A stretch of DNA of 43,531 nt from a virus: positions 1 to 43,531 of IMG/VR virus record IMGVR_UViG_3300007515_000620; one strand, 5' to 3'. The notes below the pieces were generated by a model that searched no databases, was not told where the DNA came from, and saw only the letters and a program-made list of their open reading frames with translations. Below, piece by piece: positions 6,065-27,680 of this stretch. Numbering within the stretch: the stretch's first letter is position 1; every line of letters begins with the position of its first letter. Position numbers and translations under genes: made by a program.

Positions 6065-7134
6065 ATAATTTATGTAAGATTCCCTTTTTACACAAGTATA
6101 TTAATTTTATTGATACGAGTGAAAAGCCCTGTTGTATTTTTCAAGGTCAAGAACCAATTCTTGATGTTCAGAAAAAGTTTTTAAACAATGAAAGGCCCGA
6201 AGGATGTTCTGAATGTTGGAGAAGAGAAGATAATAATATTTTAAGTAAGAGACAGCATTTTAATAATTCATTTCCAGACCACAATATTAATTCAGGTATA
6301 AAAACATATGATTTGAGATTAGGTATTACATGCAATTTAAAATGTGTAATGTGTGGACCTCACTTATCTACAAAATGGAATGAAGATAAAAATATATTTG
6401 AAAAACATATTAATAAGATAAATGATACTCCTCATGAAATCGAAGAATTAAATTTTGATGAAGCAACAGAAATATATTTTGCAGGTGGAGAACCTTTTTA
6501 TATGAAAGAGGTTTATGATTGTTTATTGAAGTTATCAGAAAGAGAATTTAATCGAAAAAATACTAAAATTAGAATAAACACAAATGCTATTATTGATGAA
6601 GATAATAAAATTTTAAAGCTTTTAAACAATTTTGAAAAAATAGAATTTACTATTTCAGTTGAAGGAGTTGAAGAGGTTAATGATTATATCAGATATCCTT
6701 CTAAATGGAAGGACTTTTTAAAAGGAGTTAAATTGATTTATGAAATGTCTGATCAACCAAAAACTGTAGAAGAAATGTTTAAATGTAATAGAAGCGTGGC
6801 GTTTAATATAACGATAAGCTGTTTAAATCTCATGAATATTTTTACTTTATATAGTTGGTTATCTGATAAAAATTATTTGTATGTTGCTAATTTTGTAGAA
6901 GAACCAAAATTGTTGAATATTAATTCTTTAAAAATAAATGTGATAGATGATTTCTTATATGAGCACGAACGGTTCGATTACAAATATGATCATTTACAAG
7001 ATGTCGTAAAATATATTGAAGAAAATTATTCATATGATGAATCTTTAAATTCCAAAATGAAATTATACTTACAAGATCTCGATATAAAAAGAAATACAAA
7101 TAGTAAACAGCTATTAAATTGGTGCTGGGTATGA
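6061..7134 (+). CDS. Radical SAM protein with N-terminal twitch domain (rSAM 4)
   Basis: Radical SAM ligands are C91, C95 and C98 in CNLKCVMC; FAGGEPF is the GGE motif. N-terminal cysteines are C5, C24-C25, C49 and C52 (EKPCC, EGCSECWRRED). The CWRRED segment links it with rSAM 2 and rSAM 12. It is shorter at the N-terminus than rSAM 1. The start codon overlaps the FkbM gene by 4 bases. Confidence 0.87.
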   Translation: MNNLCKIPFLHKYINFIDTSEKPCCIFQGQEPILDVQKKFLNNERPEGCSECWRREDNNILSKRQHFNNSFPDHNINSGIKTYDLRLGITCNLKCVMCGPHLSTKWNEDKNIFEKHINKINDTPHEIEELNFDEATEIYFAGGEPFYMKEVYDCLLKLSEREFNRKNTKIRINTNAIIDEDNKILKLLNNFEKIEFTISVEGVEEVNDYIRYPSKWKDFLKGVKLIYEMSDQPKTVEEMFKCNRSVAFNITISCLNLMNIFTLYSWLSDKNYLYVANFVEEPKLLNINSLKINVIDDFLYEHERFDYKYDHLQDVVKYIEENYSYDESLNSKMKLYLQDLDIKRNTNSKQLLNWCWV

Positions 7135-8261
7135 GTGTATTTTGCAGTGCTCCCTTTAATGGATTTTATCAAGGACTAGATGGCAAGATATCTGTGTGTT
7201 GTCAAACTCCTGTTTTAGTTGATAATAAAAATAACTATAACGAGGCAGTTCATGATCCCAAAATAGTAAAATTAAGACAAGATTTCTTAAATGGTAGGCT
7301 ACCGGAAGAATGTAAGATGTGTACTCCGCGAGTCAGGCAAGAAACTACCAAATTATGTGGATCAAAAGATAAATCTCAAGTTGCGGCAGATTATTATGAA
7401 CCAGTATTTTTAGACCTCCTATGGTCAAATAAATGTAATTTTGCTTGTATGGGATGTACTCCTAGAATTAGTTCGACTATGTTGAAATATAAATCAGCGG
7501 TTGATATAGTTGATCCCCTAAATGAGGAAGATGCTAATTATAAATGGAATTCCAAAGATGAACAACAACGTAGAATAAATTATATTTTACAAAATATAAA
7601 AACAATAAAAGGAATACATTTGAATGGTGGTGAGCCTCTAATGCAAGAAGGTTTTTACGATTTATTAGAACGATTGATAGAACTTAACGCAACTCATATA
7701 GGAATTTGGGCTCATACTAACGGAAGTGTTTCACAATATAAAGGAAAAAATATTATAGATTTTTTAAAATCATTTGATAGATGTAAAATTGTAATGAGTC
7801 ATGATGGAATTGGAAAAAAAGGAGAATACGTAAGATATGGATTACAGCAATCTATTTGGTTAAGAAATTATAAGAAATTTTCAGAATCAGGAATTAAAAC
7901 AGATGTCCAAGTTTGTTATAATATTTTTAATTGTCTGGATTTAGAAGAAATGGCTGATTGGTATGAAGAGCATTTACAAGTTACACCTAATTTAAGTTTA
8001 TGGAATTGGCCCCCTTCGTATTCGGCAAAGTATATTAAAAGAATACCAAAATTATATGATAGAGCTTTACATATATTAGAAACACATGGAAAGAGATTTA
8101 GAAAATATGAATATGTATTGGATTTTATGAAGGACACCGTTGAAGATAAAGAACTCGAGGACATGCATTACAAGTTCAGTGAAAGTATATCCAAATTTGA
8201 TGAATTAAGAGGCACGGATTTTGAAACCACTTTTCCAGAATTGAGGGAATTGTATTATTAA
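7131..8261 (+). CDS. Radical SAM protein with N-terminal twitch domain (rSAM 5)
   Basis: Radical SAM ligands are C102, C106 and C109 in CNFACMGC; LNGGEPL is the GGE motif. N-terminal cysteines are C5, C23-C24 (ISVCCQ) and C61, C64 (EECKMC). The ATG at 7131 overlaps the preceding stop as ATGA, so it is preferred over the in-frame ATG at 7119. The C-terminal part holds a WNWPPSYS stretch not seen in the neighbours, so it may act on a distinct substrate. Confidence 0.86.
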   Translation: MSVFCSAPFNGFYQGLDGKISVCCQTPVLVDNKNNYNEAVHDPKIVKLRQDFLNGRLPEECKMCTPRVRQETTKLCGSKDKSQVAADYYEPVFLDLLWSNKCNFACMGCTPRISSTMLKYKSAVDIVDPLNEEDANYKWNSKDEQQRRINYILQNIKTIKGIHLNGGEPLMQEGFYDLLERLIELNATHIGIWAHTNGSVSQYKGKNIIDFLKSFDRCKIVMSHDGIGKKGEYVRYGLQQSIWLRNYKKFSESGIKTDVQVCYNIFNCLDLEEMADWYEEHLQVTPNLSLWNWPPSYSAKYIKRIPKLYDRALHILETHGKRFRKYEYVLDFMKDTVEDKELEDMHYKFSESISKFDELRGTDFETTFPELRELYY

Positions 8262-8827
8262 TGGAAAACGGATTTATTGTTTTAGATTTCGAAGAAGATT
8301 TGAATGATTATATAAAATCATTTGATACAAATACTTTTGAAGAATTATATTTGGAAAACACTTCTTGGAAATGTAAGATTAAAAAATTGAATGAAGGAAA
8401 GTTATTTGAAATACTTTGCAAATATGAAAAAATAGCTTTTGAATTATATGAAGAAATTCTAGATATAAAATTATCTCATCATATTAATTCGCAAGAAAGT
8501 TTATCCAGTATTATATATTATGATATTAATTCTGGATATCACGGAGACCATACTGATTATGGATTATTTAATATTGTGTTGAACGATGATAGTATGGATT
8601 GTATGTATTATAAAGATGATGAATGGAAATTAATTGAATCAAAAAATAAAATGATTATAATGAATGGTGAAAAAATTGAAGAGCTTTCAAACGGGAAATT
8701 AAAAGCAGTAAATCACAAAGTTATTAAACCTTATGGATTTGAAAGATACATTGTTACTAAAATATGTTATCCAAAAAATCAAAAAGAAGAACTTTCTAAA
8801 AAACAATCTAACTGGTTATCGATATGA
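8261..8827 (+). CDS. Isopenicillin N synthase-like Fe(II)/2OG oxygenase
   Basis: 188 residues. GYHGDHTDYGLFNIVLND contains the H97-x-D99 pair in the HxDYG.LT context typical of the plant/IPNS-type 2OG-FeII_Oxy family. The distal H152 lies in KAVNHKV (the family NHRV element) and R162 in GFERYIV would bind 2-oxoglutarate. At 188 residues it is shorter than typical full-length members (about 300), so it is close to the bare catalytic core. It is of a different subfamily from the TauD-like gene at 4483. The start overlaps the last base of rSAM 5, and the end overlaps the mini-ANL gene as ATGA. Confidence 0.75.
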   Translation: MENGFIVLDFEEDLNDYIKSFDTNTFEELYLENTSWKCKIKKLNEGKLFEILCKYEKIAFELYEEILDIKLSHHINSQESLSSIIYYDINSGYHGDHTDYGLFNIVLNDDSMDCMYYKDDEWKLIESKNKMIIMNGEKIEELSNGKLKAVNHKVIKPYGFERYIVTKICYPKNQKEELSKKQSNWLSI

Positions 8828-9432
8828 AAATAACTTTATATACAAGTGGTTCCACAGGACAAGCAAAAAAAGTAACGCATGACGAAAAAGATTTTTATTC
8901 TGCCGGTCATTGGTTAGTTGAAAAATGGCGATTAGATAATCGTGATGTTATTTTAAATCCTTTTCCAGCATGGACTGTAGCATGTTGGGCTTTTTGTATA
9001 ATACCAGCGAAAATAGCTCATTGTGATATAGTGAATATTAAAATGCAACCTTTGAAATTTTGGGATGTAGTGGAAGAAGTTAAACCGACATGCCTTACAT
9101 TAGCCGTCGGAACATGGCGAACTCTTGTTAAAAGGAAAAAACCAAATTTAGATTTTGTTAGAAATTTTTCTACTGGGTCTGCCCCTGTTACCGATCAGGA
9201 TATTTCATTAATGAAATCTACCGGAGCAAAAAATATTTGGAACATATATGGCTCTACTGAATGTATTCCTCCCGTGATGATATCAAATGATGCTACTTTT
9301 AATCTTAAAGAGTCACCGTATTATTTGGAATATGATAAGACATTATGGGTTAATGGGATTGATACAGGAGATAAATTTGAACGAGATCAATGTATCGGAA
9401 GACAACTTGTTAATGAAACTTGGAAAACATGA
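8824..9432 (+). CDS. Miniature adenylate-forming (ANL superfamily) protein
   Basis: 202 residues, compared with over 500 for normal acyl-CoA ligases or NRPS A domains. It begins almost directly at the ATP-binding P-loop (A3: LYTSGSTGQAKK, residues 5-16), then STGSAPV (117-122), then NIYGSTEC (A5, residues 140-147), and ends soon after GIDTGDK (A7, residues 178-184). The N-terminal subdomain and the whole mobile C-terminal domain, with the A8 hinge and A10 lysine, are absent. The motifs are intact, so this is not obviously a decaying pseudogene. It may activate a carboxylate as an acyl-adenylate, or need a partner. The ATG at 8824 overlaps the previous stop. Confidence 0.75.
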   Translation: MKITLYTSGSTGQAKKVTHDEKDFYSAGHWLVEKWRLDNRDVILNPFPAWTVACWAFCIIPAKIAHCDIVNIKMQPLKFWDVVEEVKPTCLTLAVGTWRTLVKRKKPNLDFVRNFSTGSAPVTDQDISLMKSTGAKNIWNIYGSTECIPPVMISNDATFNLKESPYYLEYDKTLWVNGIDTGDKFERDQCIGRQLVNETWKT

Positions 9433-10409
9433 ATATTAATGTTATCGAAATAGAATTATCTTCTTTATGTAATGCAAAGTGCTCGGCTTGCATGAGAACT
9501 ATTTTAGATAAAAGAGGAAAATATTATTATAAAGGAAATTTACCTTTAGATGATATAATGGATTGGTTCGAACCACTTGACATATCTAATACAAAAATTA
9601 AAATGTGTGGCGTACTGGGTGATCCGATGATCAATCCAGAATTATATGAAATTATATTTTATTTTTTATATGAAAAAAATGTTCGTGATCTTGAAATGTC
9701 CACAAATGGGGGAACCCGCTCTTCTCAATTTTGGAAGGACTTAGGTACACTATCAAAACAATCTGATAAAAGATTTTATATTCACTGGGCGGTTGATGGA
9801 GTTACAAAAAATGATTATAGGGAAAATGTTGCCCTTCATAGAGTATGGGATAATATTAATGCTTACCATTCTACTGGCGGCCATAGCATCTGGCAGTATA
9901 TCATTTTTGATTATAATGAAGACGAAGTTGAAATGGCTAGGCAGAAGGCAAAAGATAATGGAATGAAATTCGCTACCAGAGTGAGTTGGAGAAATACGTC
10001 TGAAAAAGCTAAGGTGACTTCTAAAGCAGCTAATAAGATAGATACTGATTCATATGAAGTAGTTGAAACAAGAGCTCGCGCAAAGCAATACGAAGAAGCC
10101 AGAATAATTTGTAGACATAAAGTAAAAGGCGAACTTTATATTGGTGCTAATAAAAGATTATGGCCCTGCTGTCATTTGTATGATGAATCAATTGCCCATA
10201 AAAATAATGATATAAAGCATTTATATGAGTCTATAGGCCACGATTTTAATGACTTGACTAAAAGATCAATTAATGATATAATAGAAAGTAATTGGTTTAA
10301 AAATGAGTTAGAAGAGAGTTGGAATAAAATGCATCCTTTGCATTTACCAAGATGTTATCTTACATGTGGTGATGGTGGAAAACGTGCGGTTATAAAAAAT
10401 GTGGAATAA
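9429..10409 (+). CDS. Radical SAM protein with C-terminal SPASM-like domain (rSAM 6)
   Basis: The radical SAM signature lies almost at the N-terminus: C14, C18 and C21 in CNAKCSAC. The usual GGE is replaced by MCGVLGDPM, a GDP variant shared in position with rSAM 7 and rSAM 13. C-terminal cysteines in IICRHK, WPCCHLYDES and CYLTCGDG form a SPASM-type auxiliary cluster domain. So this member has the opposite domain order from the twitch-first proteins. The ATG at 9429 overlaps the ANL stop as ATGA; an in-frame TTG at 9420 was not used. Confidence 0.86.
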   Translation: MNINVIEIELSSLCNAKCSACMRTILDKRGKYYYKGNLPLDDIMDWFEPLDISNTKIKMCGVLGDPMINPELYEIIFYFLYEKNVRDLEMSTNGGTRSSQFWKDLGTLSKQSDKRFYIHWAVDGVTKNDYRENVALHRVWDNINAYHSTGGHSIWQYIIFDYNEDEVEMARQKAKDNGMKFATRVSWRNTSEKAKVTSKAANKIDTDSYEVVETRARAKQYEEARIICRHKVKGELYIGANKRLWPCCHLYDESIAHKNNDIKHLYESIGHDFNDLTKRSINDIIESNWFKNELEESWNKMHPLHLPRCYLTCGDGGKRAVIKNVE

Positions 10410-11325
10410 TAAAACGATTGAATGGATTGATGTAGAATTAACTAGCTATTGTAATATAGCTTGTCCTGGTTGTCTCAGACAAGAAAAGAAAGAGCAAGTT
10501 GAATCCATTTTAAATAAAGATATTATCGAATTTGAAAATCTTAAAAGATGGATCACTCCTAAAGAATTTCCCAATCTTAAATTATTAAATTTTTGTGGAT
10601 CCGTAGATGAGCCGACTCTCCATCCAGATATATTAGATATTGTAAAACATTTTAAAACTTTTACAGATGTTAATATTGCATCTAATGGATCTACCAAAAC
10701 AAAAGAATTTTGGAAGAAGTTAGGTGAATTAGGGACTTCAGTATTTTTTGGATTAGATGGAATAGATCAGGAATCATTAGAAAAATATCGAATCGGTTCT
10801 AATTTTAAAAAAGTGCAAGAAAATTGGAGAGCCTTTATAGGAGCAGGAGGCAATGCAACTTGGCAGTTTATTGTATTTGACCATAATGAGCACTTATTTG
10901 ATGATGCAGAAAGAATGTCAGAAGAGGAAGGGTTTAAAAGATTCAGAGCAATATTTTCTCATAGAGGAGGAAGTGGCGAAGTAAAAAAAGAAGTAGAAGA
11001 AGAAAAAGAAATTCGATGTAAATATGGAAATCAAAAAAGGATATTTATAAATCACTCCGGTGCAGTTTTACCATGTTGTTATTTAAATTCTGAAGCTTTA
11101 GAAATGTTAGCTACCAGAAAAAGAAAAACAAAATTTGGAAAAATATATGAAGGCGCCGGCGGAGTGCTTGCTAACAATTTAAGATATAATACCATATCAG
11201 AAGTTATAGATGGTGAAATGTTCGATCTTATACAAAAATCCTGGGAATGGCCAGACCCAGTAGAAAAATGTTGGAAGACTTGTAAAGTCAAAAAAAGAGA
11301 TGTGTTTATAGACAAGGAGATATAA
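10399..11325 (+). CDS. Radical SAM protein with C-terminal SPASM-like domain (rSAM 7)
   Basis: Radical SAM ligands are C18, C22 and C25 in CNIACPGC. The GGE position reads FCGSVDEPTLHP. The C-terminal block has a cysteine in IRCKYG, a pair in LPCCYLN and CWKTCK, which is a SPASM-like pattern parallel to rSAM 6; the two are tandem relatives. A proline-glycine pair inside the signature (CPGC) is common in SPASM maturases. The gene overlaps rSAM 6 by 11 bases and abuts the PP-loop gene by one base. Confidence 0.86.
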   Translation: MWNNKTIEWIDVELTSYCNIACPGCLRQEKKEQVESILNKDIIEFENLKRWITPKEFPNLKLLNFCGSVDEPTLHPDILDIVKHFKTFTDVNIASNGSTKTKEFWKKLGELGTSVFFGLDGIDQESLEKYRIGSNFKKVQENWRAFIGAGGNATWQFIVFDHNEHLFDDAERMSEEEGFKRFRAIFSHRGGSGEVKKEVEEEKEIRCKYGNQKRIFINHSGAVLPCCYLNSEALEMLATRKRKTKFGKIYEGAGGVLANNLRYNTISEVIDGEMFDLIQKSWEWPDPVEKCWKTCKVKKRDVFIDKEI

Positions 11326-12104
11326 TGATCTTTAATGTGAATAATACAAAAGTTGAAGTACTCATACCTGACACAGTACCAAAACTTAAACCGGAACTTG
11401 CAGATCAATTATACGCTAATCATGAACCGAATGAAATATATGAAATTCTCAGAGACTATAAAAGAAAAGATCATTATGAAAAATCTGTGAATACTGTTGG
11501 AATATGGATGTCCGGAGGAGCTGATAGTTCATTATTAGCTTATGTATTAGCAAAGAAAATCAAAGATGAAAATTTAGATATTAAAATTCAACCATTATCA
11601 GTTAGAAGAGGTCGGCCTAATAATCCAATATATGCTGGCAATGTAATTGATTTTATTGAGGAAGATTTAGATATTAAAATGAATGAACACATCGTTTATT
11701 ATCCGCCAATGGAAGATGAACATTATAGGGAAATACAAATTTTTCAAGATAAGGATAATGAAAATTTCAAAATAGATTTATTTCAAATATTATATTCTGG
11801 TATAACATGTAATCCGCCCTCTGATGATAAAAGTATTCCTAGGAACAAAGAACGAACTAGAGATGAAGAAGCTGAAAGAAAATTAGTAACGTATAATGGT
11901 ATTCGTTATTATATGAATCCTTTTTTCTGTATAAACAAACGTGGATTAAAAATGATTTACGAAGAATTAGGATTGATTGATAAATTATTCCCAGTAACTT
12001 ATAGTTGCGAAGGGACGGCTGAACAAACTAAAACGCATACACAACATTGTAAAAGATGTTGGTGGTGTCAAGAAAGATTTTGGGCTTTTGGAAGATATGT
12101 CTAA
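11325..12104 (+). CDS. QueC-like PP-loop ATPase
   Basis: 259 residues. MSGGADSS (residues 62-69) is the N-type ATP pyrophosphatase P-loop. The C-terminus carries SCEG ... HCKRCWWCQER, which parallels the CGRCPSCSER zinc site of the true QueC encoded at 25808, including the trailing ER. An internal region (TRDEEAERKLVTYNG) is not QueC-like, and overall similarity to the window's QueC is limited to these landmarks. The fold activates a carboxylate or carbonyl by adenylation for amide, nitrile or thio transfer. Its position among radical SAM genes rather than with folE and queC suggests a separate role. Confidence 0.75.
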   Translation: MIFNVNNTKVEVLIPDTVPKLKPELADQLYANHEPNEIYEILRDYKRKDHYEKSVNTVGIWMSGGADSSLLAYVLAKKIKDENLDIKIQPLSVRRGRPNNPIYAGNVIDFIEEDLDIKMNEHIVYYPPMEDEHYREIQIFQDKDNENFKIDLFQILYSGITCNPPSDDKSIPRNKERTRDEEAERKLVTYNGIRYYMNPFFCINKRGLKMIYEELGLIDKLFPVTYSCEGTAEQTKTHTQHCKRCWWCQERFWAFGRYV

Positions 12105-13515
12105 TATTTGCTATTATTCTCTAACAGGAATAAATTATAAAAATCAATTTATAACTTCTTGTGCTATTAATTCTGATAGGTTAGTTAAATTTTCAGAAAC
12201 AATATTACCATCTCAAGTATTTAATTCACAAAATTTTAAAAATTTAAGAAAAAAATTATGTGAGGGAAATTGGTCATCCGGTTGCCATTTATGTGAAGAC
12301 ATTGAAAAAAATCCAAATGCATTTTCAATGAGACAAGATTATGTATTTGAAGATGGTAAATTCGAACACGAAGAAGAAGATTATGTTTATAATTATTATG
12401 ATCCCTCTACCGGGTCTATGGACCCGAAAGGATGTAGACATATTGAAATGAGATTCAGTAATGTATGCAATATGAGTTGTTTACATTGTAGCAGTGTATT
12501 TTCTACAGGATGGCAGAAAAAATTAGAAACATATAAAACAGACGAAGAAGATGAAAAATATAATTTAGAGCAACTTCTCAATACGTTACACTTAGTCGGA
12601 GACGAAGACAAAAAAAGATTAGGTTTAAATTTAAATGATATTAAAAAGATTTGTGAAGATTTAAATAATAATTTTCCTAATATTAATAGGGTTGAAATAT
12701 CTGGTGGAGAGGTTTTAATACAAAGGCAGTTTTATCGCTTTTTAGAAATGTTATCAGATCATCCTAATCGCAAGAATATTACCATTTCATTTTATAGTAA
12801 TTTTAATTCAGATTTTGATATTGAATATTTAACTAAATTATTGAATAATTTTGGAAAGAGTGTGATATCTATATCTATAGATTCAAGTGAAAACATTTAT
12901 CCATATTTTAGAGATGGTAATTGGGAGGTTTTAAAAAATAATATATTAAAGTTCAGAGAGATTAATAAGTTCACACAGTTAGATGGAGTAGTTACATTTT
13001 CTGCTTATCAGTTCATGGACATATATAATGTTTATAAATCTATTATTTCTTTAAATTTACATCATATTAAAACGTCATTAGTACAAACGCCAAAATATTT
13101 AAATCCATGTGTTTTATTATTTGATTATGAAAAGGAATTGAGAGAAGATTTTAAGGAAACTCAAAAAATGATATATGATCTATATGAATCTCGAATGGAA
13201 AATATTCAAGAATTTAAAAAAGATAATATAGGTGTAACTATTGAAAAAAGAGAAACTGGATTAGAACCAGAACAAAAAGAAGAAGGTATACGAGGACAAT
13301 TTTTAAAAGGTGAATATGTTTTTTCGGATCTTGATTCTGGTTTGTGGTATTTAAATAATGCCGGTCATTATATTTTTAATAAAAAGAATTCTAATTATAT
13401 GAATTATAATTCATTTTTAATTTATATAAAAAAATCTGATAACCACACAGGTCAAAATTTTAATGAATATTTTACTAAATTTAAATATATCGATGAAGAA
13501 ATTATTAGGGTTTAA
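12097..13515 (+). CDS. Radical SAM protein, NSD/ETILPS subfamily, long form (rSAM 8)
   Basis: 472 residues. Radical SAM ligands are C124, C128 and C131 in CNMSCLHC; ISGGEVL is the GGE motif. The N-terminal region TSCAINSDRL-VKFSETILPSQV-...-WSSGCHLC aligns with rSAM 3 and rSAM 9. It has an acidic insertion between twitch and barrel (around residues 85-110) and a C-terminal extension ending in NEYFTKFKYID. The ATG at 12097 was chosen over an in-frame TTG at 12088; it overlaps the end of the PP-loop gene. Confidence 0.86.
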   Translation: MSNICYYSLTGINYKNQFITSCAINSDRLVKFSETILPSQVFNSQNFKNLRKKLCEGNWSSGCHLCEDIEKNPNAFSMRQDYVFEDGKFEHEEEDYVYNYYDPSTGSMDPKGCRHIEMRFSNVCNMSCLHCSSVFSTGWQKKLETYKTDEEDEKYNLEQLLNTLHLVGDEDKKRLGLNLNDIKKICEDLNNNFPNINRVEISGGEVLIQRQFYRFLEMLSDHPNRKNITISFYSNFNSDFDIEYLTKLLNNFGKSVISISIDSSENIYPYFRDGNWEVLKNNILKFREINKFTQLDGVVTFSAYQFMDIYNVYKSIISLNLHHIKTSLVQTPKYLNPCVLLFDYEKELREDFKETQKMIYDLYESRMENIQEFKKDNIGVTIEKRETGLEPEQKEEGIRGQFLKGEYVFSDLDSGLWYLNNAGHYIFNKKNSNYMNYNSFLIYIKKSDNHTGQNFNEYFTKFKYIDEEIIRV

Positions 13516-14865
13516 ATGAAAGAATGTTTTTACGCATTAGGCGGCCTTAATTATAAAAATGGTTTTATTACAACTTGTCCGCGGCAGGCTGATCAATTAG
13601 TATTCGCGAACGAAACTACTTTACCATCTGAAATATATAATCATGAAAATATAAAAGAACTTAGAAGAAAATTATATAATGATCAATGGCCATCCGGTTG
13701 TGATACATGTGAAGATATGGAACGAGATGGTTTAAGATCTATGAGATTAGATTTTTCACTTATAGATAATTGGTTTTATAAATCAGAATTTAAAGAAAAA
13801 AGAGAAGGGTCAAATCGAAATAGATTTGCCGAACAAATAATTGTTCGCGAACCGTTTGATAATCTGATGAGTTTATATAATGACAAAACTCACGAAGTAG
13901 GATTTAAAGGATTGCGACATGTAGAAATTAGATTTAGTAATGCTTGTAATTTTGCTTGCTTACACTGTTCAAAAGTTTTTTCTACAGGATGGTCTAGAAA
14001 ATTACAAAACTATGTACCGGATAAAGAAGTATTAGAACATGATTTAAAACAACTCAGAGGAACTGAACACAGGCACGGACCAGATGATAAAGGTGAAATA
14101 CAATTAAGCACAGAGAATGCATTAAAAATTATAGAAGATTTAAATGAAAATTTTCCAAATGTAGAATTTATTGATTTTGCTGGTGGTGAATTATTATATC
14201 AAAAACAATTTTTTCCAACACTTAGAAAGTTAGCAGAACATCCTAATGCAAAAAATATGTTAATATCTTTTCATACAAATTTTAATGCAGATTTTAGTGT
14301 GGAAGAATTAACTGAAGCTTTAAAACCCTTTAACGAGACCTGCATCATTATCTCAGTTGATTCAGGAAGAAATACTTATCCATACTTCAGGCACGGTGGA
14401 AATTGGGATAAATTAAAACAGAATATACGAGATTTTAAAAAAATAAATACTTTTACACATATTGATGTAAGTATTACAACTTCGGTTTATCAAATACTGG
14501 ATCTTTATGATGTTTTTGATTCTATGTTAGAATTAGATTGTCACTTGGATGCTTCCATCGTACAATCGCCACCTTATATAAATCCATCTATATTAATGCA
14601 TAAGTTTAAAGAAGAAGTGATTGGAGATTTTGAAAAAACTTTTGATATGTTATTTGATTCAAATTCAAAATATATCGAAGGTGAAAGAGGTGCAAAGGCT
14701 TGGTTAAAATATATTTTTGATTATATTCTTAAAACAAACATAGATGAAAAACAATATAATAAATTTTTAGTCTATAGAAAAAAGTCTGATAAAATATGGC
14801 AACAAAATTTTAATGACTATTTTAAAAATTATCAAATTGTAAATAACGAGTTAGTACGTGCTTAA
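13516..14865 (+). CDS. Radical SAM protein, NSD/ETILPS subfamily, long form (rSAM 9)
   Basis: 449 residues. Radical SAM ligands are C144, C148 and C151 in CNFACLHC; the GGE motif reads FAGGELL. It shares with rSAM 8 the N-terminal QADQLVFANETTLPSEI and GCDTCED blocks, the CLHCS-VFSTGW run after the cluster, and a C-terminal extension ending in NDYFKNYQIVNNELVRA. These features mark a tandem duplication of rSAM 8, since diverged. It starts directly after the rSAM 8 stop. Confidence 0.86.
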   Translation: MKECFYALGGLNYKNGFITTCPRQADQLVFANETTLPSEIYNHENIKELRRKLYNDQWPSGCDTCEDMERDGLRSMRLDFSLIDNWFYKSEFKEKREGSNRNRFAEQIIVREPFDNLMSLYNDKTHEVGFKGLRHVEIRFSNACNFACLHCSKVFSTGWSRKLQNYVPDKEVLEHDLKQLRGTEHRHGPDDKGEIQLSTENALKIIEDLNENFPNVEFIDFAGGELLYQKQFFPTLRKLAEHPNAKNMLISFHTNFNADFSVEELTEALKPFNETCIIISVDSGRNTYPYFRHGGNWDKLKQNIRDFKKINTFTHIDVSITTSVYQILDLYDVFDSMLELDCHLDASIVQSPPYINPSILMHKFKEEVIGDFEKTFDMLFDSNSKYIEGERGAKAWLKYIFDYILKTNIDEKQYNKFLVYRKKSDKIWQQNFNDYFKNYQIVNNELVRA

Positions 14866-15769
14866 AGTTTTAACTAATAATGGTTTAAAATCTTGTAACG
14901 ATCAAACCATTAAAGATAGAACCAATTTTAAAGGATGGTATTGCCGGCAGACGAATTATATTATTGATGCCGCCTGGTGGGAAGTTGGAACAGCTGTGTG
15001 CAGAACCCCTTATCCTGTTTCTATAGATGAATATTCAGGACCCAAAGTGATAATGTGTCCTAATGAGAATTGCTTCTGTGGAACCGATATAGCTATGCCA
15101 AAAGGAAAAACAGAAGATCATTTATTAATGCTTCACTGTATGAAAACAAAAGATAAGTTAGAACCCGAAGATGAAATTTATGCTATAGATAGTGATGAAG
15201 GTAGAGTAGTTGATTATTATACAGACCGAAAGTGTAATTTTAGTTGCTCTTATTGTGATCCACGAAGCCATGATTATACTGGAGAATTAACATCATTAGA
15301 AAGAATGAAGGAGGCATGGACAAAAGTTAATCCTCAGAATGTTTCTAAAATAAATATCTCAGGAGGAGAATCAACATTAATCCCACACTACTTAGATTTT
15401 GTAAAATGGTTAAAACAACGAGAGCCTAAAGCAATAATATGGACTTTAACCAATGGCACCAGACAAGTACCTTATTTAAGAGAGTTAAATAGATACTCAT
15501 TAATAAATTTTTCAATCCATCCTGAATTTATTAATGATAGATATATTAATAAGTTGGAAAGATTTTGTGAAGAAATACAATTACCCTGTAAAATGAAAAT
15601 AATGTATTTACCAAAATTTGAAGATATAGTAAATAAGGTATATGAAAGATTTAAAGACAAATTTAAAAAGCTTTATGTTAAGACTGTGCCTCTATGGGAT
15701 ATGAATAATAACATGAAATTAATGAATTATACACCTGAACAGTTTAAATTTATTCATGCGACTCAGTGA
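14858..15769 (+). CDS. Radical SAM protein with cysteine-rich N-terminal extension (rSAM 10)
   Basis: 303 residues. Radical SAM ligands are C126, C130 and C133 in CNFSCSYC; ISGGEST is the GGE motif. The 120 residues before the barrel hold at least seven cysteines (C13, C29, C48, C67, C72, C74, C94), including CPNENCFCG, which could bind an extra cluster or zinc; the pattern is unlike the twitch block of the others. The start is GTG, overlapping the rSAM 9 stop by 8 bases; no ATG is available nearby. Confidence 0.82.
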   Translation: MLKVLTNNGLKSCNDQTIKDRTNFKGWYCRQTNYIIDAAWWEVGTAVCRTPYPVSIDEYSGPKVIMCPNENCFCGTDIAMPKGKTEDHLLMLHCMKTKDKLEPEDEIYAIDSDEGRVVDYYTDRKCNFSCSYCDPRSHDYTGELTSLERMKEAWTKVNPQNVSKINISGGESTLIPHYLDFVKWLKQREPKAIIWTLTNGTRQVPYLRELNRYSLINFSIHPEFINDRYINKLERFCEEIQLPCKMKIMYLPKFEDIVNKVYERFKDKFKKLYVKTVPLWDMNNNMKLMNYTPEQFKFIHATQ

Positions 15770-16784
15770 AGAAGATTTTACAAAAATACCGTGGAAGGAT
15801 ATCGAAGCCCTTGGTACAAAAACAATGTTGTATCGGGACACATTTACAGTATCTTGGTTATTAGGTAGATTTTGTAATTACAGATGTTCTTATTGTTGGC
15901 CATATGCCAGATCAGATAAAAAAGATCATAGACCAACTGAACTTTGTATTAAAACTATTGATGAAATAAAGAGACAAGCAAGAGAACAAGGATTTAATTC
16001 TTTTAACTGGTCTTTATCCGGTGGCGAACCCACTTTTCATCCAGGTTACTTAGATATATTACAACATCTCGCGGATGATGAAGAAAATTGTAATCGTCAG
16101 CGTATACATATGACTTCAAATTGTTCTCGTAACTTGAAGTGGTTTGAGACTTATGTTAAGTATGCTCAAAAATTTAATAAAGCTTCGATTACAGCTTCCG
16201 CTCACTTTGAACATTTGGACACACAAGATAAAATAGCTAACTTTGCTGATAAGTTAGTTTTTCTTCAAGATAATGGAATTAGAATAACAATTAATATGGT
16301 TATGATCCCGGAAAGATTCTGGACATTGACAGAACATGTTTTATATTTTAAAGATCGTGGTATACACACAACATTAAAACCACAATCTAATCCTACAGCA
16401 ACGAAAGTTGTAGACGGATATACTCAAGGGCAATTAGAAATTTTACATAATGACTCTAGACCAACAGATCTCGAAATAGATTTAATAGATTCCAAAGGAA
16501 ACATATATGAAGTGGATCAAGCCGAGAGATTTAATGCGTTTAATTTTAATGAATTCAAAGGCTGGATCTGCTCGTCGGGTTTTCGTAGTATTATTATACG
16601 CGAGCCTTGCGGGAGCATTAAGCGGTCATATTCTTGCTCTGATGACCCTTTAGGAAATATTGAAACAGGGTTTAAATTATTTGATAAACCCATGCCTTGC
16701 ATAACCGATAATTGTGTTAGCTCCGCAGATAGTAAAATTCCAAAAAGAAAACCTGAGAATAAATTTCCCCTATGGAAAAATTAA
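15756..16784 (+). CDS. Radical SAM protein with C-terminal cysteine cluster (rSAM 11)
   Basis: 342 residues. Radical SAM ligands are C40, C44 and C47 in CNYRCSYC; LSGGEPTFHPGY is the GGE motif in its most canonical form here. At least five cysteines follow the barrel (WICSSG, REPCGS, YSCSDD, PCITDNC), consistent with an auxiliary site. The CSYC motif links it to rSAM 10, and the two overlap by 14 bases, so they may act as a pair. No twitch domain precedes the barrel. Confidence 0.85.
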   Translation: MRLSEEDFTKIPWKDIEALGTKTMLYRDTFTVSWLLGRFCNYRCSYCWPYARSDKKDHRPTELCIKTIDEIKRQAREQGFNSFNWSLSGGEPTFHPGYLDILQHLADDEENCNRQRIHMTSNCSRNLKWFETYVKYAQKFNKASITASAHFEHLDTQDKIANFADKLVFLQDNGIRITINMVMIPERFWTLTEHVLYFKDRGIHTTLKPQSNPTATKVVDGYTQGQLEILHNDSRPTDLEIDLIDSKGNIYEVDQAERFNAFNFNEFKGWICSSGFRSIIIREPCGSIKRSYSCSDDPLGNIETGFKLFDKPMPCITDNCVSSADSKIPKRKPENKFPLWKN

Positions 16785-17890
16785 AAAATTTCTGCGCACT
16801 CCCTTTTACTCAATTTACAGTTTCTTCATTTAATGAATACCAGTTATGTTGTGATAACTCGGGTGAATCTAAAATGTTCAGTAATAAAAATTCTATTTTA
16901 GAATATTTTAATTCTGATTATATAAATGATAAAAGAAAATCTTTTTTAGAAGATAAAAGATTAGATATATGTCAATCTTGTTGGAAACGAGAAGATCGCG
17001 GTTTAAATTCCAGAAGGATAACAGGGTTAACTAGTGATTATAAAGAACAAGTAGAAAGATATAAAAAGGGTTTATCTTTAGTTCCCAATCATCCTGTTTT
17101 CAAAATTAAATTTGGAAATTTATGTAATCTTAAATGTATGATGTGTGGTCCTCAATCATCATCTGCTTGGGCGCAGCATAAAGAAAAACATAATGAAGGA
17201 ACTTGGCCAATATATGAAAATACATTTGATGAACAAACATATGAAGATTTAAAACAAATTTTACCTAATGTAAATCGTATTATTATATCGGGCGGGGAAC
17301 CCTTAATGAACGATAGGTATTATGATTTTTTAGAATGGCTTATAGGTCATAAGTTCGCTAACAAATTAAAAATAACAACCCTTACTAATGCTACAAAAAT
17401 ACCAGATCATTTATTCCAATATAAAAAAGCCTTTAAACGATTATCTTTTAATATATCAATTGATGGTATAGAAAAGAAAGATGAATATATTAGAACAGGA
17501 ACTGTTTGGAAAAAAAAGATTGAGAATATTAAAAAATTACAATCGGCTTATGATATAGGATTTGAAATTACAGTCCAAACATTAAATGTAGGGTACTTAG
17601 ATGATATTCAAATTTATTTAAAAGAAAATTTTAATAAGACATCACCATTATCAAATATTTTAGTGACACCTAGTTATTTTGCTGTTGACTGTTTACCTAA
17701 TCCGATAAAACGAGACTATCAGCAAAAGAGTCAAAGATATATTACTGAAGATATTTCGAATTTATTAAAACTGAATGTTCCACCTGATAATAATCTTTTT
17801 ATCGAAGGAATAAAATTTCTTAAATTATGTGATAAAAGAAATAAAACTAATTTACTTAATGAATGGCCGGAGTTTGAAGGATTTTATTAA
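16772..17890 (+). CDS. Radical SAM protein with N-terminal twitch domain (rSAM 12)
   Basis: 372 residues. Radical SAM ligands are C118, C122 and C125 in CNLKCMMC; ISGGEPL is the GGE motif. N-terminal cysteines are C8, C26-C27 (YQLCCD) and C67, C70 (CQSCWKREDRG). The CxxCWKREDRG block is nearly the same as in rSAM 2 (CKVCWDKEDRG), placing both in the same subfamily with rSAM 4. It overlaps rSAM 11 by 13 bases. Confidence 0.87.
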   Translation: MEKLKNFCALPFTQFTVSSFNEYQLCCDNSGESKMFSNKNSILEYFNSDYINDKRKSFLEDKRLDICQSCWKREDRGLNSRRITGLTSDYKEQVERYKKGLSLVPNHPVFKIKFGNLCNLKCMMCGPQSSSAWAQHKEKHNEGTWPIYENTFDEQTYEDLKQILPNVNRIIISGGEPLMNDRYYDFLEWLIGHKFANKLKITTLTNATKIPDHLFQYKKAFKRLSFNISIDGIEKKDEYIRTGTVWKKKIENIKKLQSAYDIGFEITVQTLNVGYLDDIQIYLKENFNKTSPLSNILVTPSYFAVDCLPNPIKRDYQQKSQRYITEDISNLLKLNVPPDNNLFIEGIKFLKLCDKRNKTNLLNEWPEFEGFY

Positions 17891-21698: not shown

Positions 21699-22327
21699 AA
21701 CACGCAGTCGCTTGTATATGTGTTGGAGATAAGTATAATGTTTCTGATATCAAATCATTAGAGCGAATGGTATTTCGAAATACTACTTATGATATAAATT
21801 TTAGAGTATTTGATGAACCGGTGTTACCTAAATGGTGGACTAAAGTTTTATATCATTCTCCTGTAATAGAACCTTTCAAAGAAGAAGTAGTTTTAGCTTT
21901 TGATTTAGATGTAGTTATAAAAGGAAATATTGATCCTTTATTTGATTGGGTAGAACAACAAGATTATTTGTGTGCTCCGTGGGCTCGTTGGAGAGAACAT
22001 ATGGATAATTTTGAAGAACAAAGAGATCAGGATATTATTTGTACACCATATAATTCTTCTATATTAGGATGGAGACCAGAGACAACTTTGAAGATATGGG
22101 AAAATTTTGCTTTTGAAGATATAGAAAAATTTGGTGGATTCGATACTTATCTCTGGATGAAAAGATTGGATCCTATTCGAATACCTGATCATTTTTATTA
22201 CTCCGCCCATTTTGAACAATATAAAGAATTAGATTATCCAATTGTACTTTTTAATAAAGGTCAAAATATAGGTTTGGAGAAACATGAAATTTCTTCTAAG
22301 GTTCCATGGGTTAATAAATATAGATGA
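21689..22327 (+). CDS. Putative GT8-like glycosyltransferase
   Basis: 212 residues. FDLDVVIKGNIDPLF (DLD at residues 72-74) is the DxD motif with the typical GT8-like continuation (LD.D.v...di..l). WRPETTLKIWENF and GGFDTYLWMKRL fit the acceptor-side half of such enzymes. It is of the same broad type as the gene at 18928 but not closely similar. It is the last protein gene of the island and ends where the tmRNA gene begins. Confidence 0.7.
   Translation: MAVKHAVACICVGDKYNVSDIKSLERMVFRNTTYDINFRVFDEPVLPKWWTKVLYHSPVIEPFKEEVVLAFDLDVVIKGNIDPLFDWVEQQDYLCAPWARWREHMDNFEEQRDQDIICTPYNSSILGWRPETTLKIWENFAFEDIEKFGGFDTYLWMKRLDPIRIPDHFYYSAHFEQYKELDYPIVLFNKGQNIGLEKHEISSKVPWVNKYR
22313..22320 (+). promoter_or_regulatory. 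Possible T4-type late promoter for the tmRNA
   Basis: AATAAATA matches the T4 late -10 element TATAAATA at 7 of 8 positions. It sits inside the end of the glycosyltransferase gene, about 10 bases before the predicted 5' end of the tmRNA acceptor piece. In AT-rich DNA such matches arise by chance, so this is weak. Confidence 0.35.
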
Positions 22328-22607
22328 TACTGTTGACGTGTATGTATAGCAATTAAGACATCGGTGCGATTCCGATCAGCTCCACCAAGAAATTATTTCG
22401 GGTAATTTGTTGATGGGGCTGTAATAGAACTCGATTGGTTGTGAAGACATATAAAGAGGTATTCGGTAAGGCACTGCCGTAAAAGTCCACTTAAACATAA
22501 TCGCAAATAATAACGATTATTCACCCGCATATTCTTATGCTATCGCAGCGTAAGATATAGCCGAGTTGGGACTGTCACTTGGGAACAGAAGCACAGTCCG
22601 CTACAAC
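22328..22607 (+). ncRNA. ssrA: Circularly permuted (two-piece type) tmRNA
   Basis: The acceptor half comes first. A T arm (ATCGG, loop TGCGATT, CCGAT; 22360-22376) is followed by CAGCTCC-ACCA ending at 22387, then a 27-base intervening segment (22388-22414), then GGGGCTG (22415-22421), which pairs with CAGCTCC over 7 bp including one G-U. The long-range P2 helix also closes: GGTTGT (22437-22442) with GCAATT (22349-22354), and ACATATA (22447-22453) with TGTATGT (22339-22345). A pseudoknot-like region (about 22455-22495) precedes the resume codon. The coding piece ends with a hairpin, GGACTGT (22569-22575) with ACAGTCC (22593-22599). The mature RNA would rescue stalled ribosomes and tag proteins for proteolysis. 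Exact ends are estimates. Confidence 0.92.
22503..22553 (+). other. tmRNA tag reading frame
   Basis: The resume codon GCA at 22503 follows ATAATC; the T at -5, A at -4 and TC at -2/-1 agree with the E. coli TAGTC context. Reading on gives ANNNDYSPAYSYAIAA and a TAA stop at 22551. Counting the tmRNA-borne alanine, the tag is of normal length and ends in IAA, close to the usual LAA/VAA degron recognised by ClpXP-type proteases. Confidence 0.9.
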
Positions 22608-24050: not shown

Positions 24051-24734
24051 ATGAATGAAAATAGAAAATGTGATCCAGCATTGGGTCAAAAAGTGCATGA
24101 GCATTTAGTTTCATTAGGTCTAGAAACTCCTGTAGTACCGGAGCGAAAAGATTTTGATTCTGAATTTGCTATTGAAAATATTAAAGGACATGTTGAAAAT
24201 ATTATGCGAGATCTGGGTTTAGATCTTACAGATGATTCATTGTGCGATACTCCAAAAAGGGTTGCGCAGATGTATGTTAATGAAATTTTTTGGGGTTTAG
24301 ATTATAATAAATTTCCAAAGTGTACAAAGATTGCAAACTCAATGAATTATAGAGGATCTTTTGTTCTCGAAAGAAACATAAATGTTCAATCATATTGTGA
24401 ACATCATTTTATCGTTATTGATGGTGTAGCATCTGTGGCGTATATTCCTCATGATGTTGTTTTAGGTCTTTCAAAATTAAATCGAATAGTTCAATTCTTT
24501 TCTAAAAGACCTCAGGTACAAGAAAGATTAACAGAACAAATACGAGCAACAATTGCATATGTTGCAGAAACAGAAGATGTCGCTGTTCAAATAGATGGTT
24601 TACACTTTTGTGTTAAATCTCGAGGTATACAAGACCTTCGATCTTCAACAGCAACATTTTCAGCATCCGGGCAATTCGAAGGAGGCGATGTACGCAGAGA
24701 ATTCTTAGCTGGATGTAGATCTTTAATGAGTTAA
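24051..24734 (+). CDS. folE: GTP cyclohydrolase I
   Basis: 227 residues. SYCEHHF (C116, H118, H119) is the zinc and catalytic block, GLSKLNRIVQFFSKRPQVQERLT is the signature helix region, and SRGIQD near the C-terminus completes the active site. It opens GTP to 7,8-dihydroneopterin triphosphate, the first step of both folate and 7-deazaguanine (preQ0) synthesis. The 40-residue N-terminal segment is looser. With a DpdA-like gene and queC just downstream, a role in preQ0 supply is more likely than folate. A perfect promoter precedes it, and an AAAGGA Shine-Dalgarno is present. Confidence 0.95.
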   Translation: MNENRKCDPALGQKVHEHLVSLGLETPVVPERKDFDSEFAIENIKGHVENIMRDLGLDLTDDSLCDTPKRVAQMYVNEIFWGLDYNKFPKCTKIANSMNYRGSFVLERNINVQSYCEHHFIVIDGVASVAYIPHDVVLGLSKLNRIVQFFSKRPQVQERLTEQIRATIAYVAETEDVAVQIDGLHFCVKSRGIQDLRSSTATFSASGQFEGGDVRREFLAGCRSLMS

Positions 24735-24740
24735 ATTTAT

Positions 24741-25595
24741 ATGGCTGTAAAAGTTTCCCACGAAATACCTCTTTCTTTAATAGACGAACACCAAGATTTT
24801 ATAAGTGATTATATGTTCGTTTTATTACATAAAATTTTAGAAGATGAACAATACGCAAATACGGTATTAGATTTTTCTGATCACGGTGAAATAATATATT
24901 TGGATAATAGTTGTTTCGAATTGGGTGAATCATTAGATAATGAATTGTTGCATGAATGGTATCTACGAATAGAACCGGAATATGTTATATTACCAGATGT
25001 TTTAGGAGATAAGGATAAAACTATACAAAGAACTATGGAATTTGTAAAGAGTTATCCTCATGCTATTAGTGATGGCATGCCAGTTATTCAAGGAGCAACA
25101 CCTGATGAAATGATTGAATGTTATAATGAATTTATTAATTATTCTGATGAATGGGCAATTATTGGTATTCCTTTTGTTTATCGCTGGGCTGATAAAGATC
25201 CAACTCTTCAAGCAAATGAAAGAATAAAATTACTTGAAAGAATGGATAGAGAATGTATTGATAGAAAATTTAAACATCATTTATTAGGAACTTGGCAAGC
25301 AAGGGAATTTGCTCATTACAGAGATTATAATTGGATTCATAGTGTAGATACTTCTAATCCTGTAATGGCTGCATTGGACGGAACTCCCTATGCCGGCGTT
25401 CATGGGTTAACACAAAAACCTAAATCTACATTTGATTCTGTTTATGAAATGAAAGAAGAAGATATTAATTTGGATCTTTTATATTATAATGTTGATACAT
25501 TTAAACAAATTGTTGATGGTAAGTTTCCGGAAAGAAAATACCCGGAAAATTTAGATTATTTTAAATATTTTACATATTCAGGACCGTATGGCTAA
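24741..25595 (+). CDS. dpdA: DpdA-like DNA 7-deazaguanine transglycosylase (putative)
   Basis: 284 residues. LDNSCFELGE (from residue 54) and LPDVLGDKDKT (from residue 84) match the LDNG.FE.g and PDvlgd pattern of phage TGT-like DpdA proteins. GIPFVYRW and the late HLLGTWQAREF and HSVDTSNPV also fit a TIM-barrel transglycosylase. DpdA exchanges guanine in DNA for a 7-deazaguanine base. The tRNA TGT zinc site is absent, as expected for DpdA. Its position between folE and queC supports the call; sequence identity alone is only suggestive. Confidence 0.65.
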   Translation: MAVKVSHEIPLSLIDEHQDFISDYMFVLLHKILEDEQYANTVLDFSDHGEIIYLDNSCFELGESLDNELLHEWYLRIEPEYVILPDVLGDKDKTIQRTMEFVKSYPHAISDGMPVIQGATPDEMIECYNEFINYSDEWAIIGIPFVYRWADKDPTLQANERIKLLERMDRECIDRKFKHHLLGTWQAREFAHYRDYNWIHSVDTSNPVMAALDGTPYAGVHGLTQKPKSTFDSVYEMKEEDINLDLLYYNVDTFKQIVDGKFPERKYPENLDYFKYFTYSGPYG

Positions 25596-25818
25596 TAAGA
25601 TAGATCCCGAACATTATCACAGTAATACTCAACTAGAAGCTATTGATGTTATAGAGGCTTTTGATTTAAATTTTCATCGCGGAAATGTTGTTAAGTATGT
25701 ATTACGAGCTGGTAAGAAAACTGAAAAAGGTTATGAAAATAAAGATAAACAATTGGAAGATTTAAAAAAAGCAAAGTGGTATCTTGAAAGATTAATTAAA
25801 AACGTTAATGAAGGTTAA
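25588..25818 (+). CDS. DUF3310 family protein
   Basis: 76 residues. The pattern HYHSNTQLEAIDVIEAFDL, then FHRGNVVKYVLRAGKK, then QLEDLKKAKWYLERL is the DUF3310 (PF11753) signature common in phages. Biochemical role is not established. It overlaps the DpdA-like gene by 8 bases and the queC start region by 11. Confidence 0.8.
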   Translation: MANKIDPEHYHSNTQLEAIDVIEAFDLNFHRGNVVKYVLRAGKKTEKGYENKDKQLEDLKKAKWYLERLIKNVNEG

Positions 25819-26563
25819 TATGGATTTACGCGCGGCTAGAAGAGAGCTTCCAAAAATTAAAAATAATGTTGCTGTTATATTATCAGGTGGCATGGATAGT
25901 TCTATTGTTACGATGATGTTAGCTCGACATTATGGACCAGAAAAAGTATTTGCTTTAACTTTTAATTATGGTCAAAAACAAGCTATGGAATGTATGAAAG
26001 CTAAAGACTTATGTCGAGAATTGGGTGTATCCCAAAAGCAATTAGACATAGGATATTTTGGGCATTTAGTTCAACCCATTAGCGCAAACATATCTGGAAG
26101 TGATGTTGAGATGCCAACTATTAAAGATGTTTTAGGTGACCCTCAACCCCCAACATATGTTCCATTTAGAAATATGATGTTGTTAAGTAATGCATGCGCT
26201 TTTGCAGAAGTAGTAAAAGCAGAATATATATTTTGTGGGCTTCAAGTACATGATGAATATGGTTATTGGGATACGAGTCAAGCTTTTGTAGATGCATTAA
26301 ATGGCATCACTGCTCTAAATAGAACATTTAAAACAGAAATCATAGCACCATTTTCTTTATTAAGTAAAACAGAAGAACTTAAAATTTGTAAAGAGTTAGG
26401 AACATTTAATTTATTAGAACACACCTTAACATGTTATGATCCGGACGTTGAAGGTCGTAGTTGTGGTAGGTGCCCTTCTTGTTCCGAAAGAATAAAAGCT
26501 TTTGCAAATATACAAGAAACAGATCCGATACCATATCAAGTAGGATATAAGAAAGGTGATTAA
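25808..26563 (+). CDS. queC: 7-cyano-7-deazaguanine (preQ0) synthase
   Basis: 251 residues. LSGGMDSS (25-32) is the PP-loop; FNYGQKQ and PFRNMMLLSNA are QueC-specific blocks; CYDPDVEGRSCGRCPSCSER is the zinc site. QueC converts 7-carboxy-7-deazaguanine to preQ0 using ATP and ammonia. Two starts are possible: ATG 25808, inside the previous gene, or ATG 25820, which has a GAAGG Shine-Dalgarno at the right distance and gives a protein beginning MDLRAARR; the second is perhaps better. The adjacent amidotransferase gene overlaps its last base. Confidence 0.93.
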   Translation: MKVNMDLRAARRELPKIKNNVAVILSGGMDSSIVTMMLARHYGPEKVFALTFNYGQKQAMECMKAKDLCRELGVSQKQLDIGYFGHLVQPISANISGSDVEMPTIKDVLGDPQPPTYVPFRNMMLLSNACAFAEVVKAEYIFCGLQVHDEYGYWDTSQAFVDALNGITALNRTFKTEIIAPFSLLSKTEELKICKELGTFNLLEHTLTCYDPDVEGRSCGRCPSCSERIKAFANIQETDPIPYQVGYKKGD

Positions 26564-27210
26564 TGTGTAGCATCTCTGCGAGTAAAGATAAAGAAGTTTT
26601 ATTAAAATTAATAGAATTAAACAGATATAGAGGCGAAGAATCTCATTCAGCTACTCAATTTAAATATCATAAAGGAGAAGGGTTTCAAGTTAGAAGACAA
26701 CAAAAATCTTACGGACCCTTTGATATAAAATTGTTAGAAAAAGATTGGGATTATTGTATAGTTCATCAACAAGCGCCTACATCTAAAGAAGTTAATAATA
26801 CTGATTTAGCAACCGGAAGATTTATTCATCCAGCTCAAAATGAAAAATCTTTTTTATGGCATAACGGTATTATCAAAGAAGGAAAATTTGAAGGCGATTG
26901 GGATACAGAATGGTTATTTGATCTTGCATTGGAAGATTTGAAAAAAAGTCCTCTTAAAAGATTTAATGCTAGGTTAAGTGAAGCTGACGGCACATTCGCA
27001 TGTATGATGTATCACGGTCATAGGATGTTCGTATTTCGCAATGAAATTAGTCCTTTGTTTAGTAATGGTTCTACTTTTTCTTCAACCAAGTTTGAAGATT
27101 CTATACCTGTTCCACCAAATACGATGTGGAGTTTGAATTTTGAAACAAGTGTTTTAGAAGAAAAGTGGAAATTTGAAACGAAAGAAAACCCTTATCATTT
27201 TGGAGAGTAA
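26563..27210 (+). CDS. Class II glutamine amidotransferase (Ntn hydrolase)
   Basis: 215 residues. Cys2 directly follows the start methionine (MCSISA), as required for an N-terminal nucleophile after Met removal. NRYRGEESH (R-x-R-G), HNGIIKEG (the NGEI element) and SEADGTFACMMY (dG.FA) are the expected glutaminase landmarks. There is no synthetase domain. In archaea and some phages a fused Gat-QueC protein makes the archaeosine-type (G+) base; here the glutaminase is a separate gene next to queC, so it may deliver ammonia to a preQ0-derived base. It could instead serve another partner. Confidence 0.82.
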   Translation: MCSISASKDKEVLLKLIELNRYRGEESHSATQFKYHKGEGFQVRRQQKSYGPFDIKLLEKDWDYCIVHQQAPTSKEVNNTDLATGRFIHPAQNEKSFLWHNGIIKEGKFEGDWDTEWLFDLALEDLKKSPLKRFNARLSEADGTFACMMYHGHRMFVFRNEISPLFSNGSTFSSTKFEDSIPVPPNTMWSLNFETSVLEEKWKFETKENPYHFGE

Positions 27211-27680
27211 TGTTTAAACATCCCGTGAATGCCTCTACCGAGGTAACTAATATTGATAAAAAAATGATTCAGCCTAATACTATTGATTTGCGAATTGATA
27301 AGGTTTGGCGAATAGGTGCAGGACCGATGCACATGGATGAAAAGAAAAAAGATCATAGAAAACGCATAGAACAAACAGTTGACGAAAATGGTAACTTTGT
27401 TCTTGAACATGGTGCGTGCTATGAAATTCAATCTAAACAACATGTAGATATAGCAGAAGGAGAAATAGCAATTCTTCTTGGTCGAAGTACATTTAATAGA
27501 AATGGCGTATTAATTGTAAGTTCAATATATGATTCAGGTTTTAAAGATTTTGCCGGCGCTACTATGTATAATATTGGTGGCGAAACAACAGTAAAACCAA
27601 AAACTCGATTCGCACATTTGATTATAGCTGAAGCCGAAACACTTCACAAATATGAAGGAGATTATGGCGAAAAAAGTTGA
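27210..27680 (+). CDS. dUTPase / dCTP deaminase family protein
   Basis: 156 residues. IQPNTIDLRIDKVW matches the opening block of dCTP deaminases; GRSTFNRNGVLIVSSIYDSGFKDFAG is the shared substrate loop of the family; RFAHLIIAEAE fits the RiaQl strand. The protein would limit dUTP or dCTP, in keeping with phage nucleotide control. Which of the two reactions it performs cannot be settled by eye. It follows the amidotransferase by one base overlap, and its end overlaps gp33. Confidence 0.8.
   Translation: MFKHPVNASTEVTNIDKKMIQPNTIDLRIDKVWRIGAGPMHMDEKKKDHRKRIEQTVDENGNFVLEHGACYEIQSKQHVDIAEGEIAILLGRSTFNRNGVLIVSSIYDSGFKDFAGATMYNIGGETTVKPKTRFAHLIIAEAETLHKYEGDYGEKS

Follow-up and report, generated by a model that had tools for sequence, protein, structure and literature searches.

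Which base does a phage put into its DNA when its queC gene is followed by a separate glutaminase gene, and where does such a QueC take its nitrogen from? The question is raised by a gene cluster in a 43.5-kb stretch of viral DNA (43,531 nucleotides, referred to as the window), whose source is a marine T4-like phage with genes for gp32, gp59, gp33 and the baseplate. Replacement of guanine by a 7-deazaguanine is a known phage shield against host restriction enzymes, and GTP cyclohydrolase I (FolE) catalyses the first step of the 7-deazaguanine pathway. A preliminary description had read four open reading frames in positions 24051–27210 as a 7-deazaguanine DNA-modification set. All four are real, and protein families together with structural models confirm FolE, a protein of the DpdA/TGT fold, QueC and a glutamine amidotransferase (Gat). 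Two genes were overlooked in that reading: a DUF3310 open reading frame that follows dpdA and precedes queC and, directly downstream of gat, a dCTP deaminase/dUTPase-like gene (dcd) (Table 1).

Table 1. Genes of the cluster, with positions in the window and the basis of each assignment.
Gene and predicted product	Position	Strand	Basis and remarks
folE, GTP cyclohydrolase I	24051..24734	+	PF01227, E 4e-52; TIGR00063 and NF006824 above cut-off
dpdA, putative DNA guanine transglycosylase, immuto/CP220 type	24741..25595	+	phrog_19058; predicted structure
DUF3310 protein	25588..25818	+	PF11753, E 1e-14; overlaps dpdA
queC	25808..26563	+	PF06508, E 4e-50; TIGR00364 above cut-off; motif table, tree
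gat, predicted stand-alone class-II glutamine amidotransferase (glutaminase)	26563..27210	+	phrog_12378; fold by model
dCTP deaminase/dUTPase-like gene	27210..27680	+	PF22769, E 7e-14; downstream neighbour, position conserved

The genes abut or overlap, the ATG of gat sharing 1 bp with the stop codon of queC, and cluster and window have the same G+C content (32.6% and 32.2%). The order folE-dpdA-DUF3310-queC-gat-dcd was found again in dozens of viral contigs, so the cluster is not a product of chance; at least about 45 close viral contigs keep all or part of it. More distant relatives present a second layout, queE-queD-folE-dpdA-formyltransferase-kinase-queF-queC-gat-dcd. Elsewhere in the window, a permuted tmRNA is located at 22271–22599 (RF04321, 120 bits), where the alphaproteobacterial tmRNA model RF01849 also matches, possibly a hint at an alphaproteobacterial host. 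Positions 739–17890 encode an array of radical SAM proteins, nine or more in number, of which one has a SPASM domain; the long relatives give 15–16 radical SAM matches, and such an array is unusual for a phage.

The protein encoded at 24741–25595 received no DpdA family call from Pfam or NCBIfam, the libraries giving phrog_19058 only, and an hhalign comparison with one DpdA sequence, that of 9g, was uninformative; its fold was settled by predicted structure. A profile search of PDB sequences matched 7ui4 weakly (E 0.75). The AlphaFold model, built from 47 homologues, has a pLDDT of 93.1, and all of its top 50 Foldseek rows are TGT (E 5e-7). Upon structural realignment (VIA), the best match is 7ui4, the DNA preQ0 insertase DpdA (Z 17.4, rmsd 3.5, 237 aligned), with archaeal and bacterial TGT next and effectively tied (Z 16.9 and 16.6). 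The model identifies the protein as a genuine member of the DpdA/TGT family, which bears out the earlier dpdA-like call. Since the tRNA enzymes tie with 7ui4, the fold gives the family and not the DNA role; the latter is suggested by the gene context and by two relatives found with tblastn, a protein of Flavobacterium phage immuto annotated as 'DNA guanine transglycosylase' (34% identity) and one of Campylobacter phage CP220 (32% identity). We take this type to be DpdA3, a name that reportedly comes from Cui et al. 2023. Asp86 is invariant among the 47 homologues and Asp55 and Asp203 are conserved in at least 90%; Asp55, Asp86 and Asp203, which fall in the two catalytic motifs and the base-binding motif, are likely catalytic, matching Asp102, Asp156 and Asp280 of TGT by motif analogy rather than by residue-level superposition. 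In two contigs, L166 (3781–4809) and L167, DUF3310 is fused to the C-terminus of a DpdA homologue, which suggests that the separate, overlapping DUF3310 protein of the window works with DpdA as a partner. Two other contigs (L193 and L197) carry a tandem pair of DpdA homologues within one cluster.

Regarding the pathway set of FolE, QueD, QueE, QueC and DpdA, the window holds FolE, QueC and DpdA, and its long relatives supply QueD and QueE. Profile searches of the window's open reading frames found neither queD nor queE, as the preliminary description had also observed; it had left the intermediate to come from the host or from genes elsewhere, and had proposed a wider search. Beyond the window, G001 and G003, long relatives of 151 and 177 kb, have the two genes adjacent to each other and far away from the cluster, and L163 and L164 have them in the cluster itself, upstream of folE. 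In G002 (167 kb) queD was unmatched; any of these records may be incomplete. Because the long relatives encode both genes, supply by the host is unnecessary, and genes elsewhere in the phage genome are the better source. The phage-encoded pathway is probably complete, and the window phage itself would be expected to have both queD and queE.

The stand-alone glutaminase resembles amidotransferase domains. Its profile matched the GlmS glutaminase among PDB sequences (E 3.6e-5), and its model (pLDDT 90.6) matched GlmS, EgtC and PurF in Foldseek (E about 3e-8). Structural alignment (VIA) gave Z 18.6 for PurF (rmsd 3.6, 194 aligned), 17.1 for GlmS (rmsd 3.5, 196 aligned) and 16.0 for EgtC (rmsd 3.0, 185 aligned). 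All 44 homologues compared keep Cys2, Arg23-Gly24, His68, Asn101-Gly102 and Gly143 unchanged. According to the model, Gat is a class-II glutaminase of Ntn fold in which the expected catalytic residues are present, Cys2 being the predicted nucleophile. A role as an amino-sugar or other enzyme was rejected, since gat almost always follows queC directly, with either of the two DpdA types. A chromosomal origin was likewise rejected: the genome_contigs scan gave four matches only, on MAG contigs whose gene order looks viral.

Gat and QueC of the window are separate open reading frames and not one polypeptide as in the archaeosine-type fusion. The same is true of the relatives: among the loci listed (at most 80 per scan, where one contig may give several loci, so that the samples are not independent), a same-strand queC precedes the gene of 73 out of 75 distinct Gat proteins, in 60 of these cases at a distance of −13 to +11 bp, and no Gat-QueC fusion occurs, the longest QueC open reading frame having at most 276 aa. 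Among sequenced phages, 49 Vibrio and 2 Pseudomonas records contain Gat homologues, which lie next to queC at the inspected loci; nt-1, KVP40 and 6E35.1a (Vibrio phages) and Pseudomonas phage pf16 have the gene adjoining queC, annotated mostly as hypothetical. Because of this near-constant partnership and its occurrence in sequenced phages, the stand-alone glutaminase is an overlooked shared component and not a peculiarity of the window. The glutaminase had correctly been called a separate gene, yet reading it as an unusual stand-in for the fusion is not supported, and the novelty is narrower than had been suggested, the split pair being already present in sequenced phages.

Alignment separates QueC into three motif patterns. 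QueC without Gat shows YGQxHxxE and YPDC or near variants, QueC with a separate Gat shows YGQKQxxE and Y[WH]D[TC], and in fused Gat-QueC the first motif is YGCxAxxxE (YGCRA) or similar and the second YPDN or FGDN. All Gat-positive QueC proteins examined (36/36, and two further phages) have the separate-Gat pattern. Both Gat-associated types are without the canonical His, and usually without the Cys, in the same two motifs, although the changes differ. The window QueC, with YGQKQAME and YWDT in place of the canonical YxQxHxxE and YPDC, is assigned by these motifs to a QueC subtype and not to the canonical type (PF06508 cluster 1). It keeps the SGGxDS loop (SGGMDS at 26), and its zinc cysteines (C-x9-CxxCxxC at 209) are spaced one residue longer than C-x8. 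Also retained are the residues essential in E. coli QueC, namely the Tyr of YxQ, the Arg of VPxRN, the Tyr of YPDC and the Tyr after the first zinc Cys (PMC13329287), as well as the Tyr and Asp by which QueC recognises the base (PMC13279940). In QueC of Gat-less DpdA phages (L166, L171, L178, L191, L213 and L228, the last being immuto QueC), SDYKSxSS replaces the zinc CxxCxxC, and YGQKHxxE and YPDC are kept.

In a tree computed with the motif columns left out, the split QueC proteins form one clade (100/100) and the fused ones another (100/99). What is new here is that, on this phylogeny, the separate-Gat QueC proteins appear as a single clade with altered motifs. Since the split QueC has a single origin, its association with Gat would be one evolutionary event and not many. 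The AU test does not reject a tree that joins the two clades (p-AU 0.061), and some branches are long, so that an origin independent of the fused QueC is at most suggested.

Taken together, the cluster probably makes a 7-deazaguanine base and inserts it into phage DNA, with Gat and QueC as the preQ0 synthase and dPreQ0 as the base. FolE would convert GTP to CDG together with QueD and QueE, whose genes would lie in another part of the phage genome. Gat would hydrolyse glutamine through its N-terminal cysteine and hand the ammonia to QueC, which would use it with ATP to turn CDG into preQ0, the two acting as a glutamine-dependent preQ0 synthase. The TGT-fold DpdA would then exchange guanines in phage DNA for preQ0, and the modified DNA may block host restriction enzymes. 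The families, folds, gene order and the QueD and QueE of relatives come from sequence and models; DpdA-dependent insertion and the bases come from published work on other phages. Gat and QueC are retained in many viral contigs with or without QueF and formyltransferase in the operon, and for this reason ammonia supply to QueC is the most likely role of Gat. More broadly, we regard it as an evenly balanced proposition that these proteins constitute a two-subunit glutamine-dependent preQ0 synthase, in which a QueC subfamily without the canonical His and mostly without the Cys depends on a dedicated glutaminase, having arisen separately from the fused archaeosine-type Gat-QueC, in which the same two motifs are changed, and that aquatic phages have reused it alongside different transglycosylases and tailoring enzymes. 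Known tailoring genes include those for a decarboxylase (DpdL) and a methyltransferase (DpdM).

As for the base itself, profiles of QueF and formyltransferase gave nothing above cut-off in the window or in the long relatives G001–G004 and G010, IMG/VR records of unknown completeness in which absence is not proof; weak QueF matches in the window and close relatives overlap folE and are not QueF. The ArcS-like open reading frame of nt-1, so called by eye, likewise found no match in the window or its long relatives, again records of unknown completeness. Because none of the three was found in the window's clade, dPreQ0 is the simplest prediction for the window phage. nt-1, which is reported to carry an ArcS (PMC6884629), possibly the ArcS-like frame, has 232 dPreQ0, 72 dADG and 44 dG+ per million nucleotides in its DNA (PMC6884629). 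In 6E351A, a strain that we took to equal the record 6E35.1a (MW824377; queD-folE-dpdA2-queF-queC-gat), 15% of dG is present as a mass consistent with dPreQ1 (PMC12028318). Both of these measured split-pair phages use DpdA2 and not the DpdA type of the window, which counts against the dPreQ0 model. The base may vary even among near relatives, given that QueF lies upstream of queC in the short contig L029, whose Gat and QueC share 70% and 92% identity with those of the window, unless this contig is a chimeric assembly. Over L029:1–1450, QueF and a short open reading frame occupy the place of the window DUF3310, directly upstream of queC, through either a gene swap or a chimeric contig.

The preliminary description had named preQ0 or G+ as the base, and the separate Gat could be read as a pointer to G+. 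It is unlikely that Gat and QueC, when split, work as the fused protein of phage 9g does, finishing archaeosine and leaving dG+ in the DNA. The 9g fusion together with DpdA does give dG+ in E. coli DNA, queC mutant included (PMC6884629), which shows that archaeosine synthesis can make use of a Gat partner; there is distant similarity between the two Gat families (hhalign E 0.0015), and the same residues are lost from the same QueC motifs. Yet the replacements are YGCRA/YPDN or similar in the fused proteins and YGQKQ/Y[WH]D[TC] in the split ones, and the split pair coexists with the preQ0-consuming QueF in 6E35.1a, pf16, 2.275.O and many contigs. The retention of Gat and QueC with or without QueF and formyltransferase, the mainly dPreQ0 content of nt-1 and the dPreQ1 of 6E351A all favour preQ0 synthesis over archaeosine, and the pointer to G+ is not supported by these two phages. 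The little dG+ of nt-1 counts against the preQ0 model, but nt-1 also has the ArcS-like frame; for the window phage, dG+ is a possible but less likely outcome.

It is more doubtful still that QueC with Gat halts at the amide and that the base is dADG (7-amido-7-deazaguanine). ADG is an intermediate of QueC (PMC13329287), the altered QueC motif lies beside the substrate, and dADG is highly abundant in Campylobacter phages (PMC6884629), whose DpdA relative is the one 32% identical to that of the window. However, QueF, which needs preQ0, is found in many phages with the same QueC subtype, 6E351A makes dPreQ1, and CP220 QueC has FPDC and belongs to the Gat-less type, hence its product is not transferable. 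Finally, the cluster might raise preQ0 for queuosine in host tRNA without modifying DNA, given that FolE, QueC, QueD and QueE are common to queuosine synthesis, that such a role was proposed for DpdA-less phages (PMC6884629), and that the transglycosylase fold matches the tRNA enzymes almost equally well. We consider this highly improbable, as almost every relative has a DpdA-type protein within the cluster, the sequence relatives of the window DpdA belong to phages with 7-deazaguanine DNA (PMC6884629), and the related clusters of nt-1 and 6E351A give modified DNA. Synthesis of preQ0 and its insertion as dPreQ0 is the reading that we prefer.

These results correct the tempting rule that Gat beside queC means archaeosine, and they provide a likely function for phrog_12378, which is present in many T4-like phages and mostly annotated as hypothetical. 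The QueC motif differences lead to a testable prediction on the nitrogen source of QueC. The cassettes are modular, with the same core and QueF or formyltransferase added or missing, which suggests that phages may switch their DNA base by exchanging a few genes and would help to predict the DNA chemistry of a phage from its sequence.

Among known systems, nt-1, KVP40 and 6E35.1a (Straboviridae) resemble the window in being T4-like and in their gene order of folE, dpdA, queC and stand-alone gat, and their QueC falls into the same clade and the same motif subtype. They differ in their DpdA2 of about 460 aa (284 aa for the window protein) and in having no DUF3310 between dpdA and queC; nt-1 adds the ArcS-like frame and 6E35.1a adds QueF, and the window has neither. 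Pseudomonas phage pf16 also carries folE, a dpdA, queC and the adjacent gat, with queD and queE nearby, but its transglycosylase is DpdA2-like and QueF is placed between dpdA and queC. Phages immuto and CP220 share the short DpdA with the window, whereas neither genome has Gat and their QueC is of the Gat-less motif type; immuto, unlike the window, carries formyltransferase, kinase and QueF. Enterobacteria phage 9g, with FolE, QueD, QueE and DpdA, likewise combines QueC with a class-II glutaminase, but its distantly related Gat is fused to a QueC of a separate clade, its transglycosylase is DpdA1, and its product is dG+ (PMC6884629).
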